From a virus: a stretch of 20,229 nucleotides of DNA. The stretch spans positions 1-20,229 of IMG/VR virus record IMGVR_UViG_3300027963_000407; one strand, given 5' to 3'. Under the pieces are notes generated by a model, which saw only the letters and a list, made by a program, of their open reading frames with translations, was not told the DNA's origin and searched no databases. A program made the position numbers and the translations under genes. Numbering within the stretch: position 1 is the first letter of the stretch; the number at the start of each line of letters is the position of its first letter. Shown in pieces: positions 3,170-15,973 of this stretch.

Positions 3170-4525
3170 TTATCGTCCTGGGGGTCTTGGGTTTGGTGGT
3201 GTAATATTGCCGCCTTGGCTACCGTTGTCGGCTTGTGGTTTGAGTATTTGACTTAAACTTTGACGACTTGGAATATTGCCTTGATCTGTGGTAGCAACAG
3301 TGTATGTATTGTTGACAAAGCTGGCACGTTGAGTTAATGCACCTGTGGCTAAATCTAGGTCAGTACGAACATTGTCTTCAATTTTAACCCAACTCGCGCC
3401 ACTGAATCTAAACAAGCGATTGGGAAAGTAATCTAAACGCAGGGCATAGTCGCCTGCAACTGGATTGGGTGGAAAGCTAACTCCTGGTGTTACAGGCAAG
3501 CCATTGGGTGCTTGTCCATCACCAGTTAGGTAACCCATGACATAGCCAAAGCTCTTGGGAGTATTACCTTCACCGGTTTGAGTGCTGTCTACTGTGGGAT
3601 AGGTATCATCGGCAGTGAGACCGGCTCCTGCAGGTTGCCCATTGTCAGTAGTGGGCAATATATAGAATTTTGTAACATCGTAACCACTGAGCGGAACATC
3701 GGCCTGTGCTTGTACCAGTAATGCATCATTGATTTCCAGATCTTTGGGCCTGGTACTCATTTGATCGCCCACTGTGGTAGGCGTGGTCACTGCTTGCCAA
3801 TAATCTGTGTCAGTGATGTCAGTTCCAGGTGGAACGTTTTGCTGTGCAACATAATAGGTACCACCGTTGTTGACTGTTTCGCCACTGGGATAAAAATTGC
3901 CAGGATCCCAGATATTTTCCGGCATAAATGGCTGGTTGATGATTTGGCTGTATTCTTGAGCATTAACCAGCGGCGTGGCTTTGATCCGCCACAGGTGTGG
4001 TAACCAAGTTTGGCTAAATCCTTCACTGGCATAGTTGCCATCCTGTATCACATAATATCTAGGCAGTGCATTAGGAATTGCACGATTCAGTGGATGGTAG
4101 TCTTTTAAATTAGGAACTTCAATAACATCACCTACCATGAGCTTGCGTCCAAAAGTGTCGATCATGTTGTTGTAGTGGAATGTGATAAACAAAGTATCGT
4201 TGTTTAAGAACAGGCCAAATTGCGTCAAATCAAAATCAACGTCTTGCGTACGATAAACACCACGCATGATGTACACGTCTGGATCGTATGCTCGATCTCG
4301 ATTTTCCAACAACAGTAAATCTTCGATAAACAACGGATTTGTAGTATCGTAAGTGGGCAAGGTAGCGTCACCGGGATTGTTGGTTTGTTCTGGATCTACT
4401 ATAGGTCCGAGATATTTGTGAACATAAATGTCAATTCCGCCAACAGTAAACATCTCTTTGATAGTGCGATCAAAGAATCGGTAGTCAGCAGTTCTGTTTG
4501 GGCGATATAGGCTTAGGCGTGGCAT
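3170..4525 (-). CDS. 14: Neck protein, gp14-like
   Basis: A 451-residue protein. Segments RFFDRTIKEMFTVGGIDIYV, FGLFLNNDTLFITFHYN, GRKLMVGDVIEVPNL and LPHLWRIKATPLVNAQEYSQ follow the gp14 pattern (a nonstandard-length relative; T4 gp14 is about 256 residues). gp14 together with gp13 forms the neck that closes the packaged head and receives the tail. Residues about 205-244 form a carbohydrate-binding-like insert (Y..G..V...G..Y.A....PPGT....YW). Residues about 355-385 carry DYALRLDYFPNRLFRFSG, a module I associate with aquatic-phage gp14. I chose ATG 4525: it sits just after a late-type box, and the longer in-frame start at 4585 would run through the divergent gene's promoter. It abuts gp15, forming one operon. 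Confidence 0.87.
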   Translation of the reverse strand: MPRLSLYRPNRTADYRFFDRTIKEMFTVGGIDIYVHKYLGPIVDPEQTNNPGDATLPTYDTTNPLFIEDLLLLENRDRAYDPDVYIMRGVYRTQDVDFDLTQFGLFLNNDTLFITFHYNNMIDTFGRKLMVGDVIEVPNLKDYHPLNRAIPNALPRYYVIQDGNYASEGFSQTWLPHLWRIKATPLVNAQEYSQIINQPFMPENIWDPGNFYPSGETVNNGGTYYVAQQNVPPGTDITDTDYWQAVTTPTTVGDQMSTRPKDLEINDALLVQAQADVPLSGYDVTKFYILPTTDNGQPAGAGLTADDTYPTVDSTQTGEGNTPKSFGYVMGYLTGDGQAPNGLPVTPGVSFPPNPVAGDYALRLDYFPNRLFRFSGASWVKIEDNVRTDLDLATGALTQRASFVNNTYTVATTDQGNIPSRQSLSQILKPQADNGSQGGNITPPNPRPPGR

Positions 4526-4532
4526 AGTTATG

Positions 4533-4540
4533 TATTTATG
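4533..4540 (-). promoter_or_regulatory. Late-type promoter box (CATAAATA) for gp14-gp15-Nudix
   Basis: Read on the minus strand this is CATAAATA, one base from the T4 late consensus TATAAATA, and it ends 7 bases before the gp14 ATG. Transcription would begin close to the ATG and leave almost no leader; I see no Shine-Dalgarno there. An alternative reading as a weak host-type promoter (TTGAAT, 17 bp, CATAAA) is possible, but both hexamers match only 4 of 6. Confidence 0.6.
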
Positions 4541-4547
4541 GGTTAGA

Positions 4548-4576
4548 TTGACTTGTAATTCAAAAGCTCGTATAAT
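4548..4576 (+). promoter_or_regulatory. Host-type promoter TTGACT-17-TATAAT
   Basis: TTGACT at 4548-4553 and TATAAT at 4571-4576 are separated by exactly 17 bp (11 of 12 consensus bases). Only 7 bases separate TATAAT from the ATG at 4584, so the predicted transcription start falls on or next to the A of the start codon. No Shine-Dalgarno is available. Confidence 0.85.
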
Positions 4577-4583
4577 TACACGC

Positions 4584-4835
4584 ATGGACGAACTATTTCA
4601 ACGCTTGGACCGTGCAGAACGAGCCATAGCCAATGTCAAAAATAAGGTGGCCCGTAAAGATCTGCTCAAAATGGTTCGGGCAATAGACCATGCTATTACA
4701 GCCGCAGATATGGAAAGTGTAGAATGCCGTAGAACACGCAAGGAAACATTACGGTATAAGGAATTAGTGCAAAAGACAAATAATTTACTTACAAACTTAG
4801 AACAGCACATAACCTTTGCTAATTTGCTCGGTTGA
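4584..4835 (+). CDS. Small coiled-coil protein, early-type gene
   Basis: An 83-residue, charged, helix-rich protein starting MDELFQRLDRAERAIANVKN, with heptad-like spacing of Leu/Ile/Val through most of its length. There is no membrane segment or cysteine cluster beyond one Cys. I do not recognise a family. The ATG at 4584 is chosen because a near-perfect host-type promoter ends 7 bases upstream; the longer in-frame start at 4530 lies upstream of that promoter. The TGA stop is embedded in the -35 hexamer of the next gene's promoter. Small basic or charged proteins expressed from strong early promoters in T4-like phages often bind host targets, but that role is inference only. Confidence 0.78.
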   Translation: MDELFQRLDRAERAIANVKNKVARKDLLKMVRAIDHAITAADMESVECRRTRKETLRYKELVQKTNNLLTNLEQHITFANLLG

Positions 4836-4860
4836 CAAATGGGTAATTTTCACATATAAT
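4832..4860 (+). promoter_or_regulatory. Perfect-consensus host-type promoter TTGACA-17-TATAAT
   Basis: TTGACA at 4832-4837 and TATAAT at 4855-4860, spacer 17 bp: all 12 bases match the sigma-70 consensus. Six bases separate TATAAT from the ATG at 4867, which places A of ATG at the expected +1. Confidence 0.92.
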
Positions 4861-4866
4861 ACATGT

Positions 4867-6012
4867 ATGGCTAAAACAAACGAAATCAAACGACTAAACC
4901 CCAAGGGTGCTGACTCCAAATACATTGGATTCGAACCCGAATGGCCGACGCAACCTGCTGACGAAAATCGCGTCAGTGCCTTGGCCAATGGATTCCATTG
5001 GTACAACTATCATTACGGTAAAAAAGATGCCAAGGATATGTTGTGTCATTATTTAGAGCACAACGGGCGCACAAAAGATGCTCGAACAATGCGTGGCATT
5101 CCCGACAGTCAAATTCGACTTACACCTGCTTGGGTGTGTCGTATGACCTTGCTTGGGTTGCAATTAAAAGATTACGAGCAGGCCAGTATCAATGAGCAAT
5201 TGGATGAAATGCTCCGGGCCAAACAAGAAATCCGACGGGCACAGGCTGACGTTGATGCTGACGCTGCCGTAGCCCGGCTCACAATTCAAGATCACCTGCG
5301 TGAAAAAGTGTCAGAATGCTGTGGCGAACTAGAAGGCATGTTTGATAATTTTATTGACGCAGGCGCTAAGATGTCGGCGGACTTTAAACCACTGATGTTA
5401 ATACGTGGTCTCAATATTAGCCCCAACATGATCAGCACAGTCGCTAAAGTTTGGGAATTAAGACTAGCCGAATTTAGCGAAGTGTTGGAAGGCACGGACC
5501 CTCAGTTGGTTGAAGGATACAGCCATCTCACAAAAATACAACTTCGTAATTGTGTAAAATTTTGTGAAACTGTAATCAATGATTGCAACAGTTATGTTCA
5601 ACTGAAAAAAGTAGAACGCAAACCACGCAAGGCCAAGCCAGTTAGTCCGGAAAAGAAAGCGGCCAAGTTTAAGATTTGTGCAGAATTTGCAGAACTCAAA
5701 CTCAAAAGTTTGCCGGCCGCACAACTGGTTGACAAGAGTGAAGCCTGGGTTTATGATACCAAAAAACGCAAACTGATACACATTGTGGCTGATGAATATG
5801 CCAAGGTGTTTACCGTCAAGAACAATAGTGTGATTGGGTTTAGCAAGATAGAAACAGTGCAAAAGACCCTGCGTAAACCGGCTGAAACTGTTAAACTTGT
5901 AACGGCCGCAGGCAAACCGGCTGCTCGCAAGATCTTCAAAGAACTTTCTACAACAGAAACAGCGTGGAACGCTCGCGGAACTGAAAACTTAGTAATACTG
6001 CGGGCATGGTAA
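4867..6012 (+). CDS. Conserved phage protein of unknown function, early-type gene
   Basis: A 381-residue protein starting MAKTNEIKRLNPKG. The N-terminal third has aromatic and charged motifs (YIGFEPEWP, GFHWYNYHYGKKDAKDML). The middle is helical, with coiled-coil potential around residues 105-165 and a Lys/Arg/Pro-rich linker near 260-280. The C-terminal part (residues about 300-381) has EAWVYDTKKRKLIHI and KTLRKPAETVKLV. I recognise this C-terminal pattern from hypothetical proteins of marine T4-like phages, but no function is known to me. The basic linker could contact nucleic acid. ATG 4867 is preferred over the in-frame start at 4816, because 4816 lies upstream of the consensus promoter. 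The expected transcript starts at this ATG, so it is probably expressed early and leaderless, separate from the structural genes on both sides. Confidence 0.87.
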   Translation: MAKTNEIKRLNPKGADSKYIGFEPEWPTQPADENRVSALANGFHWYNYHYGKKDAKDMLCHYLEHNGRTKDARTMRGIPDSQIRLTPAWVCRMTLLGLQLKDYEQASINEQLDEMLRAKQEIRRAQADVDADAAVARLTIQDHLREKVSECCGELEGMFDNFIDAGAKMSADFKPLMLIRGLNISPNMISTVAKVWELRLAEFSEVLEGTDPQLVEGYSHLTKIQLRNCVKFCETVINDCNSYVQLKKVERKPRKAKPVSPEKKAAKFKICAEFAELKLKSLPAAQLVDKSEAWVYDTKKRKLIHIVADEYAKVFTVKNNSVIGFSKIETVQKTLRKPAETVKLVTAAGKPAARKIFKELSTTETAWNARGTENLVILRAW

Positions 6013-6045: not shown

Positions 6046-6816
6046 ATGGCCTTAGAAAACCAAGCAAGTCTAGACACCCTAAAACAGAATCTTTTTGATT
6101 ATGTTCGCCTACAGATAGGCGATCAGATCGTTGATCTCGAGTTGGATGCTGAGCACTATGAAGCCGCATACCAACGCACCATTGGTGTATACCGTCAACG
6201 GGCACAAAACGCCTACGAAGAAAGTTACAGCTTTTTGGAACTGGTAACCAATGTGAATATCTATGATATGCCACAGGAAGTCATTACTGTGCGTCAAATC
6301 TTTCGTAGAACATTTGGCGATAGCACAGGCCCATTTGCCAGCAATTTTGACCCGTTTAGTCAAGCGTCAATGAACGTTTATCTAATGAACTTCAACGTAG
6401 CAGGCGGCCTCGCCACTTATGACTTTTACAGTCAGTATGTGGAACTAGCTGGGCGTATGTTTGGTGCCTATATGAACTACACCTACAACCCAGTGACCAA
6501 AAAATTACAGTTGATTCGTGATCCCAAAGGCACTGGTGAAGCAGTGTTGATGTGGACTTACAATTTAAAACCCGAATTTAACCTGTTGAGCGATTTCCAG
6601 ATACAACAATGGATTCGAGACTACATGGTTGCAGCCTGTAAAATGATCATTGGCGAAGCACGTGAAAAATTTGGCACCATTGCCGGACCACAAGGCGGTG
6701 GAACACTCAATGGCACTGCAATGAAAGGCGAAGCACAAACCCAAATGGATGCCCTGCTCGAAGATCTTCGCAGATATGTTGATGGTAGCCAACCACTTAC
6801 CTGGGTAATAGGTTAA
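6046..6816 (+). CDS. 13: Neck protein, gp13-like
   Basis: A 256-residue protein. The N-terminal helical region LKQNLFDYVRLQIGDQIVDL followed by AEHYEAAYQRTIGVYRQRAQ has the pattern of T4-like gp13 (connector-adaptor helices). NVNIYDMPQEVITVRQIFRR and a C-terminal helical bundle with FQIQQWIRDYMVAACKMIIG also fit. T4 gp13 is about 309 residues, so this is a slightly shorter member. With gp14 it forms the neck below the portal after packaging. It is plus-strand, whereas its usual partners gp14 and gp15 lie on the opposite strand about 1.5 kb away, an unusual arrangement. The ribosome site GGAG lies in a small hairpin loop, with a degenerate late-type box further upstream. Identification is by pattern, and another head-tail connector protein is the main alternative. 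Confidence 0.78.
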   Translation: MALENQASLDTLKQNLFDYVRLQIGDQIVDLELDAEHYEAAYQRTIGVYRQRAQNAYEESYSFLELVTNVNIYDMPQEVITVRQIFRRTFGDSTGPFASNFDPFSQASMNVYLMNFNVAGGLATYDFYSQYVELAGRMFGAYMNYTYNPVTKKLQLIRDPKGTGEAVLMWTYNLKPEFNLLSDFQIQQWIRDYMVAACKMIIGEAREKFGTIAGPQGGGTLNGTAMKGEAQTQMDALLEDLRRYVDGSQPLTWVIG

Positions 6817-6823
6817 TATTCAC

Positions 6824-6852
6824 TAGACTTTGATTACAACTTGTGCTATACT
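6824..6852 (+). promoter_or_regulatory. Host-type promoter TAGACT-17-TATACT
   Basis: TAGACT (4 of 6) at 6824-6829 and TATACT (5 of 6) at 6847-6852 have a 17-bp spacer and lie in a 41-bp intergenic gap. TATACT ends 5 bases before the ATG at 6858, the same geometry as the two stronger promoters upstream. It is weaker than those. Confidence 0.6.
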
Positions 6853-6857
6853 ACAGC

Positions 6858-7379
6858 ATGAGTTCATTAATGATTGACATAGAAGGTTTAGGCACTGGTC
6901 CTGATGCGACCATTTTGACCATTGCGGCACAGAGCTTCGACCCGTTTGGGACAGGATACTATGCCCGTCAATACTATGCCCGAATCACTCTTGAAAGTCA
7001 AGAAAATCGCACTATTCAACAAGACACCATAGATTGGTGGGCAACTCAACACGAAGCACAGTCTGAGGCTTTTATGGAAGAAGGTCGAGTAGATCTAGAC
7101 ACCGCACTTGACAGTCTATACAAACTGGCCTGGCAACACAAATTTATCTGGGCCAATGGTCCGACCTATGACATGAACATCTTGGAACATGCCTACAAAA
7201 GCTATGGCAAAAGTTTGCCTTGGCAGTTCTACAATGTTCGCGACGCTAGAACTGTGTATAGTTTATGGCCTGACCTGCCCAAACCCGCTACCAGTCACCA
7301 TGCACTGGAAGACTGCCGTAGACAAATTGACATGCTCCAGGCCACATTACGACATCTGAATGTAAAGGAAATACGATGA
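6858..7379 (+). CDS. DEDDh 3'-5' exonuclease, DexA/Rv2179c-like
   Basis: A 173-residue nuclease with all DnaQ-fold motifs visible: D7-I-E9 (motif I, in LMIDIEGLG), D105 in WANGPTYDMNIL (motif II), and H148-A-L-E-D152 (the HxxxD of the DEDDh group). The TIDWW segment and compact size resemble T4 DexA and the Rv2179c-like exoribonuclease family. Known members remove nucleotides 3' to 5' from DNA or RNA; whether this one acts on host DNA, phage DNA or RNA cannot be told. ATG 6858 is chosen over GTG 6843 because the promoter's -10 box overlaps the latter. ATG 6870, directly before IDIEG, is also possible. It overlaps the next gene by 4 bp (ATGA), so the two are probably coupled. Confidence 0.88.
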   Translation: MSSLMIDIEGLGTGPDATILTIAAQSFDPFGTGYYARQYYARITLESQENRTIQQDTIDWWATQHEAQSEAFMEEGRVDLDTALDSLYKLAWQHKFIWANGPTYDMNILEHAYKSYGKSLPWQFYNVRDARTVYSLWPDLPKPATSHHALEDCRRQIDMLQATLRHLNVKEIR

Positions 7380-8024: not shown

Positions 8025-8693
8025 ATGATCATTGGAATTTGTGGACTAATTGGTTCTGGGAAAGACACCATTGCTGACTACTTGCAAAACATACATCAAT
8101 TCCGCAGAGAAAGTTTTGCTCATGCTCTTAAAGATGCAGTGGCACAGGTTTTTGGTTGGGACCGTGAGCTGTTGGAAGGACGTACTAAAGAATCAAGAGC
8201 CTGGCGCGAGCAAGTGGATACATGGTGGGCAGAACGTTTGAAAATGCCTAACTTAACTCCTAGATATGTATTACAAGTTTGGGGCACTGAAGTTGCCCGT
8301 AAAAGTTTTCACGATGATATCTGGATCGCAAGTTTAGAAAATAAACTTAGAAAAACCACGGATGATGTGGTAATTTCGGACTGCCGTTTTCCTAATGAAA
8401 TTAAAAGTATTCGACGGGCCGGCGGCATCGTGATTCGTGTTGTGCGTGGCCCAGAGCCCAAGTGGTACGCCGCTGCGGAAAGTGCCAATAGAGGACCCAA
8501 AGGCAATATGACTTGGGCACTGAGCTGTCGCGAGCTAGAAAGAGCCAAAGTTCATGCCAGTGAAACTGCTTGGATTGGTACAAAATTTGACGCCGTAATA
8601 GACAACAATACCGATGGACTAGACAATCTGTATAGTCAAATTAAAGATCTGGTTCTAGCTCACCAGGCGTCCAAGGACGGTCCATCCGTTTGA
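8025..8693 (+). CDS. 1: Deoxynucleoside monophosphate kinase, gp1-like
   Basis: A 222-residue kinase starting MIIGICGLIGSGKDTIADYL, with the P-loop G7-L-I-G-S-G12-K13-D14 that is typical of T4 gp1-type dNMP kinases. FAHALKDAVAQVFGWDRELL, YVLQVWGTEVARK and the VVISDCRFPNE segment follow the family order. Length is close to T4 gp1 (about 240). It phosphorylates dNMPs (in T4 including the modified cytosine nucleotide) to feed phage DNA synthesis. Whether this phage uses a modified base is not visible here. The ribosome site AAGGA lies about 6 bases before the ATG. The 3' end overlaps the convergent HNH-type gene by 53 bp, leaving no room for a terminator. Confidence 0.93.
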   Translation: MIIGICGLIGSGKDTIADYLQNIHQFRRESFAHALKDAVAQVFGWDRELLEGRTKESRAWREQVDTWWAERLKMPNLTPRYVLQVWGTEVARKSFHDDIWIASLENKLRKTTDDVVISDCRFPNEIKSIRRAGGIVIRVVRGPEPKWYAAAESANRGPKGNMTWALSCRELERAKVHASETAWIGTKFDAVIDNNTDGLDNLYSQIKDLVLAHQASKDGPSV

Positions 8694-8988
8694 TTTCTTC
8701 TACGCAGTTTAGACATATGGTTTTTAAATTGCGTGGATTGGTATTGTGCTGATTACCATCCACATGATACACCAGCAGTTGACTGGCATAACGTGATCTA
8801 AAACTGCAACGATCACAGGCAGGTTTTTTCTTGTAACCTGCAGTCTTCCACCTAGGCTCAGGCGGCCTAACATTACGACTTTTAGCAATGCATTGTCCAC
8901 ACCGATTTCGATAGTGTGCAACTTCGTCACGATAGTAATTGATAGCACAAGGTCGTTGGCGGCATGCAGGGCAAACAGGTCTAATCAT
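8641..8988 (-). CDS. Small HNH-type zinc protein
   Basis: A 115-residue protein with paired cysteines: C6-x2-C9 with C30-x2-C33, and C58-x2-C61 with C92-x2-C95, consistent with two zinc sites. Between the last pairs lies YHVDGNQHNTNPRNLKTIC, the HNH-like core (H75, D77, N87). I recall closely similar proteins, often called HNH endonuclease, in marine T4-like phages. The C-terminal His of a full HNH motif is absent (CLNCV), so nuclease activity is uncertain and a DNA-binding zinc protein is the alternative. It is the only minus-strand gene in the right-hand 16 kb. Its start lacks a Shine-Dalgarno and lies 4 bases after GGTAAATA. It overlaps dNMP kinase tail to tail. Confidence 0.82.
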   Translation of the reverse strand: MIRPVCPACRQRPCAINYYRDEVAHYRNRCGQCIAKSRNVRPPEPRWKTAGYKKKPACDRCSFRSRYASQLLVYHVDGNQHNTNPRNLKTICLNCVEEIKRMDRPWTPGELEPDL

Positions 8989-8992
8989 GGTA

Positions 8993-9000
8993 TATTTACC
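8993..9000 (-). promoter_or_regulatory. GGTAAATA box 4 bases before the HNH-type gene start
   Basis: On the minus strand GGTAAATA is followed by TACC and then ATG. It keeps the TAAATA core of late boxes but has GG in place of TA. An identical octamer with the same 4-base gap precedes the gene at 15485. Its function as a promoter is uncertain. Confidence 0.35.
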
Positions 9001-9050: not shown

Positions 9051-9058
9051 TATAAATA
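9051..9058 (+). promoter_or_regulatory. Perfect late promoter box TATAAATA for gp18
   Basis: TATAAATA is the exact T4 late consensus, recognised in T4 by gp55-containing polymerase. It lies 28 bases before the gp18 ATG, leaving a leader of roughly 20 bases with the ribosome site AAGGA (9074-9078). It lies in the 98-bp divergent region between the HNH-type gene and gp18. Confidence 0.88.
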
Positions 9059-9086: not shown

Positions 9087-12000
9087 ATGGCACTTTTATC
9101 CCCAGGCGTTGAAGTTACAGTTGTTGACCAAAGTCAATATATACCAGCCGCTGTCAACTCGGTTCCTTATATTTTACTTGCCACTGCACAGAACAAAGTA
9201 TCTGGCACAGGTGTAGGTGTTGCTGCAGGCACACTGGCTGCTAATGCCAACAGAGTGTATTTAATCACTAGCCAACGTGATCTATCTGCAACATATGGTG
9301 TTCCGTTCTTTTATAAAACCACAGCTGGCACGCCGATCAACGGGTACGAGCTCAACGAATATGGCCTATTGGCTGCTTACAGCGCATTAGGCATTACCAA
9401 TCGTGCATACATCCAACGTGTTGATGTGGACTTGTCTGCATTAACAGCTAGTCTAGTTCGCCCAACTGGTACTCCTCCTAACGGAACTTATTGGTTAGAT
9501 ACAACCAACAGCCTATGGGGAATATCTCAATGGAATCAAACCACAGCGGCATTTACTAACCAAATTCCAACAGTGATTGTTGACAGCACACAGCTGGTTG
9601 CTAATACAACTCAGCCATTGGCAAGTATTGGATCAATTGGCGACTATGCTATCACAGCAATCAACATCAATACGCCAGGTTACTACAAACGCGGTGGCCC
9701 CACAACAAGTCAAACTTCTTCGACTGCGTTGTCTGATGCTTATAATACCTGGGTAGAAGTAGGCAGTGATGACTGGAAAACAGCTTGGCCCACAGTGCAA
9801 GGAACCAATTCGGTAACAACACTAACTGCCAATAACATTGTTTATATCAATGCCACTTCTGTTGCAGTTCCGGTTAGTCCTAACAACACACTTGAAGGAC
9901 TCAGCGACGCTATCAACAGTGCCAACATCACTGGTGTTTATTCTGCATTTGTTGACAGCAAGTTACAAATTTATGCTGACAGCACTACACTGGGTGCTCG
10001 TCCTTCTGTGGGCAATGCTACAGGAAACGGAACAGTGGCCACATTGACATTTGCCACTTTGTCACAGGCACCATATGCAGTTGGGTCGTCAATTGTGGTT
10101 GCCAACGTTGTTCCTAGCGGCTACAACGGAACATATACAGTAACAGCCTGCGGCAACTCTACAGTGTCATTTGCCAGTACCTATGCCAATGCATACAGCA
10201 GTGGTGGAACAATTTCACAACCTGGCGTGGTTTCAGTCCTGCCTGGTGCAAGCGGAACCGCATTGAGTGATGTTGGTATTAGTGCAGGAGTGTATTACCC
10301 ACCTGCATTCTTGGCTGCTCCTAATTATTCAGCACCACGTTGGAGAACTACAGACACTCAACCAGAACCCACTGGTTCTGTATGGCAACGCACCAACAGT
10401 GTAAATCTTGGTGCTAATTTATCACTTAAAAAATACAGCACATTGTTGGGCACTTATGTTCAACAGGCATGTAACATATATTCAAGTTTGTCTGAAGCCA
10501 CTTACACATTAGATCCATCAGGTGGCGGTAAAAATATTGTGGCCGGAACCACCGTGGCTACAACCAATCCTGAATTTCTTGACCCAGCTATATTGAGTCT
10601 CCAGATTTTTGAAAGATATGCTGCTGGAGCAACTGTTGTAACAGGATCTACAGATACACCGGTGGTTACCAGTGCAGATGCATTTTATATTTCTGCTACA
10701 ATCCCAGGCCAGGCCACTATTGGAACACCAGTATTAGCGACAATAGGTGCATCAACAGTATCTGCGTTCTTAACAGCAGTCAGTGCCGCAGTTGGCTCTT
10801 CAACATTTGCATCTTATGTAAGTGCATCTGTTAATAGTGCTGGCGCTATTGTGTTTACTCACAGTGCCGGTGGTACAATTGTTTTAACAGATGCCACTGG
10901 AACTCCGCTTGCAGATGCTGGATTTGATACCGACACTGAATTCTGTCGTGCTGGTGAAGGCACTGACTTGATTTTAAGTTACTGGGTAACTGCGCCAACA
11001 TTCACTTACACAGCCAGCACCACTGGGCCAGATCAAGATCCAGACAATGGAACTTATTGGTATTACTCAGCCACTACACAAGCTGACATCATGATCCAAA
11101 ACAACGGTGCCTGGATGGGTTATCAAAATGTAACCAACGATGTTCGCGGTGATAATTTGTTAAACACAAATGCTACAGGTCCTATATTCAGTACCACAGC
11201 ACCTACAACACAAACCAATTCGGCTGCAAGCGCATTGGAATACGGTGATTTGTGGATTGATACCAGTGATTTAGAAAATTATCCATTAATCAATCGTTGG
11301 AGTAATATAGATGGTATTGATCAGTGGGTAACCATTGACAACACAGATCAAACAACACAAAATGGTATTGTGTTTGCAGATGCTCGTTGGTCTCCAAATG
11401 GTCAGGCCAACCCGGTAACCGGTACACTGCCGTCAATCACCAGCTTGTTAACCAGTAACTACTTGGACTTGGATGCTCCTGAGCCTACATTATATCCACA
11501 AGGAACACTGTTGTGGAACACACGTAGAAGCGGATTTAACGTAAAAGAATTCCAAGGTAATTATTTTAACACAACTGATTTTGATGTTCCTATATATGAC
11601 AGCACTACATCTTATGCGTATAACGACTTTGTTAACTACAATGGTGTAATTTATGTTTGCTTGGATACACCTCCTACGGCAAACGTTCCTCCGACCAACG
11701 CTACATATTGGTCTGCATTGACTGCTGAAAACGGTACAGTTAATACCTGGGTCACTGCCAGTGGCAACAGAAATGACGGTTCTCCATACATGGGTCGGTT
11801 GGCACAACGTGCTATTATTGTTGCTGCCCTCAAGAGTGGTATTGATACCAGCGTTCAAGCCCGTGAGGAACAGCGTCAGTATAACTTGATTGCTTGCCCA
11901 CAGTATCCTGAATTAATGACCAACATGGTCGAACTCAATAATGATCGTAAGAACACAGCATTTGTAATTGGCGATACTCCATTGCGTTTAGGACCAGACA

Positions 12001-12758
12001 GCACTTCACTTGCAGCATGGCATAGTAACAATGACGGTGCTGGATTGGCTACATCCGATGGACAAGGATCGTTTGATTCGTATTTGGGTATATTCTACCC
12101 AAGTTGCCAGACTACTGACTTGTCAGGTAGCCCAGTGGTTCAACCACCGAGCCACATGATGATTCGTACAATTATTCGTAGTGATGAAATTGCATACCCT
12201 TGGTTGGCACCAGCAGGAACACTGCGTGGTGTTATTGATAATGCCGCACTGCTTGGTTACGTAAATGGTCAAACTGGTGAATTCATAACTATTGGTGTAA
12301 GTCAAACTTTGAGAGATGTGTTGTATCAATTGGATATCAATCCAATTACATTTATTCCGGGCATTGGTATCACCAACTTTGGTAACAAGACAGCTACCAA
12401 CATTTCCAGTGCGTTGGACCGTATCAACGTGGCACGTTTGGTTGCATTTATACGTGGACGCCTACAAGAAATTGGTAATCAATACTTGTTTGAGCCCAAC
12501 GATCAAATTACACGCAATCAAATCACTAACTCATGCACTAGTTTAATGCTTGATTTGGTAGCAAAACGTGGTATCTATGATTACTTGGTGGTTTGTGATT
12601 TAAGTAACAACTCACCGGCCACAATTGATGCCAACGAATTGTATGTTGATATTGCGATCGAACCAGTTAAATCGGTTGAATTTATCTACATTCCGTTGCG
12701 TATTCAGAACACTGGATCAATTGCTTCCAGCGTTAGCACAGTGGCTACTGCCGGTTAA
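9087..12758 (+). CDS. 18: Tail sheath protein gp18, greatly enlarged
   Basis: A 1223-residue sheath protein, nearly twice T4 gp18 (659). The N-terminus MALLSPGVEVTVVDQSQYIP and the C-terminal third are typical sheath: GRLAQRAIIVAALKSGIDTS, EIAYPWLAPAGTLRGVIDNA, NPITFIPGIGITNFGNKT and FIRGRLQEIGNQYLFEPNDQ. Together these form the contractile core that surrounds the tube and drives injection. Residues about 120-880 are mostly inserted beta-rich, Thr/Ser/Asn-rich modules. They include NGTYWLDT (near 131), a related NGTYWYY (near 653), GDLWIDTSD (near 720) and a carbohydrate-binding-like unit (near 836-880). These should project from the sheath surface. A perfect late box and AAGGA site precede it. 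The frame is uninterrupted. The outward location of the inserts is inferred from known sheath architecture. Confidence 0.95.
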   Translation: MALLSPGVEVTVVDQSQYIPAAVNSVPYILLATAQNKVSGTGVGVAAGTLAANANRVYLITSQRDLSATYGVPFFYKTTAGTPINGYELNEYGLLAAYSALGITNRAYIQRVDVDLSALTASLVRPTGTPPNGTYWLDTTNSLWGISQWNQTTAAFTNQIPTVIVDSTQLVANTTQPLASIGSIGDYAITAININTPGYYKRGGPTTSQTSSTALSDAYNTWVEVGSDDWKTAWPTVQGTNSVTTLTANNIVYINATSVAVPVSPNNTLEGLSDAINSANITGVYSAFVDSKLQIYADSTTLGARPSVGNATGNGTVATLTFATLSQAPYAVGSSIVVANVVPSGYNGTYTVTACGNSTVSFASTYANAYSSGGTISQPGVVSVLPGASGTALSDVGISAGVYYPPAFLAAPNYSAPRWRTTDTQPEPTGSVWQRTNSVNLGANLSLKKYSTLLGTYVQQACNIYSSLSEATYTLDPSGGGKNIVAGTTVATTNPEFLDPAILSLQIFERYAAGATVVTGSTDTPVVTSADAFYISATIPGQATIGTPVLATIGASTVSAFLTAVSAAVGSSTFASYVSASVNSAGAIVFTHSAGGTIVLTDATGTPLADAGFDTDTEFCRAGEGTDLILSYWVTAPTFTYTASTTGPDQDPDNGTYWYYSATTQADIMIQNNGAWMGYQNVTNDVRGDNLLNTNATGPIFSTTAPTTQTNSAASALEYGDLWIDTSDLENYPLINRWSNIDGIDQWVTIDNTDQTTQNGIVFADARWSPNGQANPVTGTLPSITSLLTSNYLDLDAPEPTLYPQGTLLWNTRRSGFNVKEFQGNYFNTTDFDVPIYDSTTSYAYNDFVNYNGVIYVCLDTPPTANVPPTNATYWSALTAENGTVNTWVTASGNRNDGSPYMGRLAQRAIIVAALKSGIDTSVQAREEQRQYNLIACPQYPELMTNMVELNNDRKNTAFVIGDTPLRLGPDSTSLAAWHSNNDGAGLATSDGQGSFDSYLGIFYPSCQTTDLSGSPVVQPPSHMMIRTIIRSDEIAYPWLAPAGTLRGVIDNAALLGYVNGQTGEFITIGVSQTLRDVLYQLDINPITFIPGIGITNFGNKTATNISSALDRINVARLVAFIRGRLQEIGNQYLFEPNDQITRNQITNSCTSLMLDLVAKRGIYDYLVVCDLSNNSPATIDANELYVDIAIEPVKSVEFIYIPLRIQNTGSIASSVSTVATAG

Positions 12759-12776
12759 CATCATGGCCAATACGAC

Positions 12777-12784
12777 CATAAATA
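12777..12784 (+). promoter_or_regulatory. Late promoter box CATAAATA for gp19
   Basis: CATAAATA differs from the T4 late consensus only at the variable first base. It lies 21 bases before the gp19 ATG, with AGGAG (12793-12797) 8 bases from the start codon. Confidence 0.8.
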
Positions 12785-12805: not shown

Positions 12806-13429
12806 ATGGCTGTTTCATCGTTAAGTAGAATGACTGTGCCTTTGGCCAGTAACCAAAGCACCCCAAGTCAAGGCTTGTTAATGCCAAAACTCAAGTATCG
12901 CTTTCGCGTTACTTTTCAGAATTTTGGAGTAAGTCAACCAGTTACTGAATTGACCAAACAGGTCATGGATTTCACTAGACCTAGCGTTGAGTTTGCAGAA
13001 ATTGCACTTCCTATATACAACAGCACGGTTAAGTTGGCTGGAAAATACACATGGGCAGATGCTGTCTGCAACATACGTGATGATGCCAGCGGTGCTGTAT
13101 CTAGACTAGTTGGCGAGCAATTGCAGAAACAATTGGACTTTATGGAAATGGCGTCAGCTGCTTCAGGCATTGACTACAAGTTCTTAACAGTGTTTGAAGT
13201 GTTAGACGGCGGCAACGGAACAGCTGCTCCTGTGGCATTAGAAACTTGGGAACTGTATGGTTGTTATCTCAAGTCAGTCAACTACAATGACTTGAACTAC
13301 GGAACCAGTGAAGCGGCCACTATTACAATGAACATTACTTTTGATAATGCAAACCAAGTAGCCGGACAAGGTGTTGGCACATTGATTGGACGCACAGTAG
13401 GTGACGTGGCATCTGGCGTAGGCCTCTAA
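12806..13429 (+). CDS. 19: Tail tube protein gp19
   Basis: A 207-residue protein directly after the sheath gene, the usual gp18-gp19 order. LKYRFRVTFQNFG, the ALPIYNSTVKLAGK segment, WADAVCNIRDDASG and the ETWELYGCYLKSVNYNDLNY strand order fit the gp19 tube fold. T4 gp19 is 163 residues; the extra length is mainly an N-terminal 25-residue Ser/Pro-rich lead and a Gly/Val-rich tail. Stacked hexamers form the inner tube through which DNA passes. It has its own late box and a strong ribosome site, which suits a protein needed in high copy. The next gene, 6 bases downstream, is a probable paralogue with the same strand pattern. Confidence 0.9.
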   Translation: MAVSSLSRMTVPLASNQSTPSQGLLMPKLKYRFRVTFQNFGVSQPVTELTKQVMDFTRPSVEFAEIALPIYNSTVKLAGKYTWADAVCNIRDDASGAVSRLVGEQLQKQLDFMEMASAASGIDYKFLTVFEVLDGGNGTAAPVALETWELYGCYLKSVNYNDLNYGTSEAATITMNITFDNANQVAGQGVGTLIGRTVGDVASGVGL

Positions 13430-15472: not shown

Positions 15473-15480
15473 GGTAAATA
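15473..15480 (+). promoter_or_regulatory. GGTAAATA box 4 bases before the gp16-like start
   Basis: This is the same octamer and 4-base gap to the ATG as at the HNH-type gene. It overlaps the right arm of a small inverted repeat (TACCG 15456-15460, CGGTA 15472-15476). There is no Shine-Dalgarno between it and the ATG. Function is uncertain. Confidence 0.35.
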
Positions 15481-15484
15481 TGGT

Positions 15485-15973
15485 ATGACACGCAAATTAG
15501 AAGAGCTCTTTGATTTTCCGCCTTCGGAACAGCCCGAAGCAACTCCTACTGTTGAGCAAACCCGAACCCAACTAGCCGAGATTGACGCCACTATAGACAA
15601 AATAGATGCGGCCCTGCCCACAGTGCGCGACTTGGAAACTGGAGATCAAGAGCTAGACGACTTGGCTTCAAAAGCACAAGAAACATTTGACAATCTAATG
15701 GATCTGGGCTTCAATGTGGACAGCCGCTACTCAGGTGAAATCTTTGCTGTAGCCAGTAGTATGTTGGGTCATGCACTCACAGCCAAAACCGCCAAGCTGA
15801 ACAAAAAATTAAAAATGGTCGATTTGCAGTTGAAAAAATTAAAAATGGACCAAGACCAACGCCGTAATGCACCAGAAGAAGCAATGGAAACAGCGCATGG
15901 ACAAGTGCTGAGTCGTAACGATTTGCTGGAACGTTTGATAGCCTCCGGCGCACAAAACAATAACAAAGCATAA
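15485..15973 (+). CDS. 16: Probable small terminase subunit, gp16-like
   Basis: A 162-residue, almost wholly helical protein, the size of T4 gp16 (164). The central segment YSGEIFAVASSMLGHALTAK followed by basic KLNKKLKM and LQLKKLKM matches the gp16 pattern (FATLMGQM, then Lys-rich helix), flanked by an acidic N-terminal coiled coil. Near the C-terminus LSRNDLLERLIAS resembles the gp16 tail that contacts the large subunit. In T4, gp16 oligomers recognise concatemer DNA and stimulate gp17 packaging. The large subunit is not in this window. The gene contains a perfect 16-bp direct repeat. It lies 29 bases after gp4 and lacks an obvious ribosome site. A scaffold-type coiled coil is the main alternative identity. 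Confidence 0.72.
   Translation: MTRKLEELFDFPPSEQPEATPTVEQTRTQLAEIDATIDKIDAALPTVRDLETGDQELDDLASKAQETFDNLMDLGFNVDSRYSGEIFAVASSMLGHALTAKTAKLNKKLKMVDLQLKKLKMDQDQRRNAPEEAMETAHGQVLSRNDLLERLIASGAQNNNKA
15803..15848 (+). repeat. Perfect 16-bp AT-rich direct repeat inside the gp16-like gene
   Basis: The sequence AAAAAATTAAAAATGG occurs at 15803-15818 and again at 15833-15848, exactly 30 bp (10 codons, about three helical turns) apart. Both copies encode KKLKM. Codon identity is complete despite synonymous freedom. It may be a local duplication or a DNA site such as a packaging signal. Confidence 0.75.

Follow-up and report, generated by a model that had tools for sequence, protein, structure and literature searches.

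Two neighboring genes in the DNA analyzed here, A and B, are likely members of a leaderless gene set that extends across a clade (we put the probability at roughly 80%); transcription would start near the ATG, and selection would maintain this layout separately for each gene. The DNA, hereafter the window, is a complete IMG/VR record of 20,229 nt, and all indications are that it is part of a T4-like phage genome. It carries T4-type genes for the tail sheath, tail tube, a gp15-like stabilizer and head closure, TAAATA late promoters are present, and Gp23 was found in six of six large relatives. Judging from these genomes, the clade would consist of large freshwater T4-like phages in which about one gene in ten is of the leaderless type. 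The central features of the window are:

3170–4525, minus strand: gene M, virion structural protein (phrog_11591), near-leaderless start
4533–4540, minus strand: T4-late-type box CATAAATA of gene M, 7 nt before the ATG at 4525
4548–4576, plus strand: sigma-70-like promoter of gene A, TTGACT (4548–4553), 17 nt, TATAAT (4571–4576), 7 nt to the ATG at 4584
4584–4835, plus strand: gene A, 83 aa, three-helix protein, leaderless-type start
4832–4860, plus strand: sigma-70-like promoter of gene B, TTGACA (4832–4837), 17 nt, TATAAT (4855–4860), 6 nt to the ATG at 4867
4867–6012, plus strand: gene B, 381 aa (phrog_11903), leaderless-type start

The two promoters, TTGACT-17-TATAAT and TTGACA-17-TATAAT, sit where the original prediction had placed them, and their -10 boxes end 7 and 6 nt before the ATG. 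In a standard sigma-70 promoter the -10 box ends at -7 and +1 lies 7 nt further, so that the predicted +1 is the A of the ATG at 4867 for gene B and 4583/4584 for gene A, at or beside the A of the ATG as had been proposed. We infer from this spacing that transcription would indeed begin at or near the ATG. Counted from the ATG, the first T of TATAAT is at -13 in A and -12 in B, which agrees with the criterion that Zheng et al. (2011, PMC3160421) use to recognize leaderless genes, a -10 box ~12 nt ahead of the start codon. Both genes start with ATG, the codon required of leaderless genes, and inspection upstream of 4584 and 4867 found no Shine–Dalgarno (SD) sequence, again as predicted.

The window has 39 promoter-like sites, of which the promoters of A and B are the best two. 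That total is not above the shuffled mean (40.9), and because the site count matches the shuffles, only quality, placement and conservation distinguish these two promoters. A further site, TTGACA-17-TATGAT (5729–5757, 11/12 consensus), lies on the sense strand within the coding sequence of gene B. The -35 box of the gene B promoter overlaps the stop codon of gene A, and gene B begins 31 nt past that stop. Both genes are flanked by the divergent gene M and a head–tail adaptor gene, in a structural (neck/tail) block. Early expression of A and B, as originally described, would rest on their host-type promoter sequences; both genes lie in this structural block, elsewhere in the clade the leaderless layout also occurs on T4-late-type promoters (portal and other virion genes), and of the small genes that follow the clade's strongest sigma-70-like promoters the majority have an SD leader. 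The predicted model of the gene A protein (pLDDT 94) has three helices, and PHROG and Pfam searches with the protein gave no match. The model of the gene B protein (pTM 0.34) was too weak for a fold search, and a sequence search of the PDB returned no relative.

Relatives of A, B and M were taken from viral contigs and their upstream regions were compared, a check of promoter–ATG spacing that had been suggested originally. Of the 95 distinct sequences upstream of gene A, 90 had the layout TTGAC-17(18)-TATAAT-(5 to 7 nt)-ATG, with a spacer of 17 in 89 and of 18 in one, and this layout held over protein identities of ~50 to 100%. Met1 was invariant in 15 aligned orthologues. As the gap varies between 6 and 7 nt, which shifts any upstream frame, and Met1 does not vary, translation of A should begin at this ATG. 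In gene B the gap is 6–7 nt in close relatives, and more distant ones have an SD leader of 20–30 nt. In a phylogeny built from 89 proteins of gene B, one class change (support 95/99) separates the 73 leaderless rows from the 16 leadered ones. The homologues in phages PA5oct and ZZ01 are leadered, that of PA5oct with an AAGGAG leader and a GTG start, which suggests, on an unrooted tree, that leaderless is probably the derived state for gene B. In PA5oct the homologue (L314) lies just upstream of the neck protein; detection by mass spectrometry is annotated for the neck protein and not for the homologue. Spacing, the absence of an SD, ATG use and conservation together support the claim that A and B have putative leaderless starts on near-consensus host-type promoters.

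Gene M's box and the gene A promoter stand back to back inside a 58-nt divergent gap, and since A and M diverge from this gap, A is necessarily the first gene of its transcript. TAAATA-7 nt-ATG was found in 83 of 92 distinct sequences upstream of M. The start codon was ATG in 86/86 near-leaderless upstream sequences, with ATT or TTG only in the six leadered ones. SD-leadered M starts with ATT in five distinct upstream sequences, and in four of these five no ATG, GTG or TTG occurs upstream as far as the nearest in-frame stop. The orthologues with an AGGAG leader and an apparent ATT start are L154, L158, L159, L162 and L073; TTG is found in L173/L148. Start codons of this rare class are known from the infC gene. 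Leaderless mRNA requires AUG, is aided by IF2 and antagonized by IF3, and may be served by 70S ribosomes; dependence on IF2 and repression by IF3 also characterize AUU starts (reviewed in PMC4611024). Because leaderless AUG and AUU share these dependencies, the ATT starts fit dosage tuning, a hint that M may be kept at a weak, IF3-sensitive start in both of its forms.

The layout in the window was confirmed as real and appears, by the same sequence evidence, more extensive than had first been noticed. In six genes a -10 or late box precedes the ATG by 4–7 nt, namely M, A, B and those starting at 6858, 8988 (minus strand) and 15485, and no SD was found at any of these six starts. The additional features, with two leadered genes for contrast, are:

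6824–6852, plus strand: third host-type promoter, TAGACT-17-TATACT with TG before the -10 box, 5 nt to the ATG at 6858
6858–7379, plus strand: exonuclease gene (phrog_255, Rv2179c-like), leaderless-type start
8993–9000, minus strand: late-type box GGTAAATA, 4 nt before the ATG at 8988 of an HNH-like gene (8641–8988)
15473–15480, plus strand: late-type box GGTAAATA, 4 nt before the ATG at 15485 of a 162-aa gene (phrog_16202)
9051–9058, plus strand, contrast: late box TATAAATA, 28-nt leader with an AAGG-type SD, tail sheath ATG at 9087
12777–12784, plus strand, contrast: late box CATAAATA, 21-nt leader with AGGAG, tail tube ATG at 12806

Orthologues of the exonuclease gene in G004 and G006 have a gap of 6 nt. 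Apparent relatives of the HNH-like gene in G002 and G003 have a late box plus 5 nt, and a relative matches HNH endonuclease phrog_2255. Relatives of the 162-aa gene in G003 and G005 have the same 4-nt gap. Where a clear late box is followed by a leader in the window (starts at 6046, 9087, 12806 and 15995), an SD-like stretch is always present. The tail sheath (9087–12758) is very long at 1223 aa, and matches from known phages leave at least about a quarter of its length uncovered.

The clade-wide analysis used the six large relatives, G001–G006 (183–344 kb; G001–G003 are possibly fragments). Sigma-70-like promoters were picked blind to what lay downstream, and the distance was taken to the first ATG of a long ORF; starts came from a simple ORF caller, and families were pooled across related genomes. 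The distances from -10 box to ATG were bimodal, with a spike at 6 nt and an SD-bearing mode at 28–31 nt. Exactly 6 nt was seen at 36 sites versus 1.8 expected (Poisson P ~6e-34, a value that ignores orthology); counted by family, 27 families have a leaderless member. An SD was present in 62 of 82 cases at 20–36 nt versus 2 of 49 at 5–8 nt. T4-type late boxes split likewise, into 4–5 and 7–8 nt versus 17–24 nt. The T4 late box ends at -6, so that a 5-nt gap puts the A of the ATG at +1; boxes at 7–8 nt would yield leaders of 2–3 nt, not zero. With simple calling, leaderless-type genes made up 8.0–12.1% of the genes in the six relatives, or 20–37 genes per contig over both promoter classes. Of 169 leaderless-type genes, 3 had an SD, compared with 43% of all other genes, although its absence is partly forced because the adjacent -10 box occupies the place of the SD. 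Leadered promoters have the form TATAAT AGTnGTATAGT..AAGGAG, and the commonest trinucleotide at their +1 position is ATA, whereas leaderless promoters have ATG there. Many small genes across G001–G006 share a standard leader, TATAAT-AGTnGTATAGTnAATAAAAAGGAGCA-ATG, together with a TTGACC -35 box and a conserved spacer.

The same script was run on seven control phages: T4, S-PM2, PA5oct, Ochrobactrum phage OC, Synechococcus phage ZZ01, Atu_ph07 (200 kb) and phiM12. Leaderless-type genes made up 0–0.9% of their genes, in keeping with the original view that such starts are unusual in T4-like phages, and comparison with the 8.0–12.1% of the relatives marks the trait as clade-specific among the genomes tested. 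Controls in which the offset was shifted by a few bases gave 0–3 sigma and 0–4 late genes per genome. The class of a gene was also heritable. Among multi-member sigma families, 30 of 32 were uniform in class (permuted mean 10.7, maximum 20), as were 32 of 34 late families (permuted mean 9.2, maximum 17), so that orthologues hold their class in 62 of 66 families overall.

Leaderless families include exonuclease phrog_107, primase, an endonuclease, phosphoribosyl transferase, portal, a tape-measure-like protein, homing endonucleases, a radical SAM protein and a glycosyltransferase. The DNA polymerase gene looked leaderless in G001, but this candidate was rejected because four of five relatives lack a leaderless start for it. 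The portal gene has a leaderless start in 6/6 relatives. The major capsid protein is leadered in all six, with a AGGAGACTTAA-ATG start and AGGAG, and the tail sheath and tail tube are leadered in all six as well. A baseplate wedge subunit, whose copy number is presumably low, is also leadered, which makes the link to copy number a tendency and no rule.

The other T4-type phages tested almost never place promoters in this way, and phages of this clade therefore appear to run a second, leader-free route of protein synthesis initiation. We hypothesize that RNA polymerase would initiate on, or ~3 nt from, the A of the ATG by either of two promoter routes, host-type sigma-70 (6 nt from the -10 box) or T4-late-type (4–8 nt from TAAATA), and that ribosomes would engage the 5'-terminal AUG without an SD. 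Selection would hold the choice for each gene, giving SD leaders to the abundant capsid, sheath and tube proteins and leaderless starts to portal, several nucleases, homing endonucleases and others. Leaderless initiation chosen gene by gene probably serves to set the level of translation. More tentatively, leaderlessness may lower or tune translation through the balance of IF2 and IF3.

A different explanation of the layout, which we regard as possible and yet rather doubtful, is genome compaction, with promoters crammed into short gaps and leaders lost as a by-product; this would challenge a function of leaderlessness, not leaderlessness itself. The 58-nt gap shared by A and M, the overlap of the gene B -35 box with the gene A stop and portal boxes that closely follow an upstream TAA/TAG all fit such compaction. 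Against it, the layout is effectively absent from the seven other large phages, and class has been retained gene by gene across long divergence.

Infection could also alter ribosomes or initiation factors (IF2/IF3 balance, phage bS21) and so favor the leaderless set at some stage, with M, which alternates between a leaderless AUG and an SD plus AUU, both IF2-dependent and IF3-repressed, staying in the IF3-sensitive tier. This is unlikely. The three largest relatives do encode bS21 (L312 in G005, L313 in G004 and G006:51329-51484), but bS21 was not found in G001–G003, which may be fragments; it is common in unrelated phages (PMC9723584), and a search for a phage IF3 found none.

It is very unlikely that the adjacent boxes are real but that the working start is slightly upstream, or that the genes are mainly SD-less cistrons of longer transcripts. 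The choice of transcription start can shift by several bases, and B, 31 nt beyond the stop of A, could be read from the A promoter; nevertheless, A must head its own transcript, two different promoter types both peak at +1, and ATG is dominant at these offsets. Chance occurrence of near-consensus -10 boxes beside ATGs in A+T-rich intergenic DNA, which the site total of the window would allow, is refuted by the conserved layout (36 sites versus 1.8 at 6 nt, kept in orthologues and missing from controls) and has a negligible probability.

The preferred reading, a selected clade-wide leaderless set, resembles known systems in part. Leaderless mRNAs of phages are known mainly as single genes, such as lambda cI. 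The genes described here are like bacterial leaderless mRNAs and lambda cI in having an ATG at the predicted +1, no SD and a -10 box ~12 nt upstream, and unlike such single cases in forming a conserved set of 20–37 genes per contig on two promoter classes. T4, S-PM2, phiM12 and PA5oct share with the clade a T4-type structural module, TAAATA late boxes, sigma-70-type promoters and many SD leaders, and differ in their 0–0.9% of leaderless-type genes. Actinobacteria and Deinococcus-Thermus mix SD and leaderless genes in one genome (over 20% leaderless; PMC3160421), much like this clade, but theirs are cellular genomes. In our literature search of open-licence papers, no description of a set of leaderless genes in a phage turned up. 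Dozens of conserved leaderless genes on two promoter classes, whose leadered orthologues serve as natural controls, would allow the purpose of leaderless initiation to be tested in one system, and annotation that relies on the SD will misplace starts in phages of this clade.

The accessible part of a report on bS21-encoding huge freshwater phages gives them 31–34% G+C and Bacteroidetes hosts, and describes no leaderless gene set (PMC9723584). These phages are like the present clade in being large, of freshwater origin and carriers of bS21, and unlike it in G+C and hosts as far as that part goes; membership in their clade was set aside on G+C. The best matches of the bS21 proteins found here are distant (57% at best) and come from proteobacterial MAGs, two of them betaproteobacterial, which hints weakly at Betaproteobacteria as the host.
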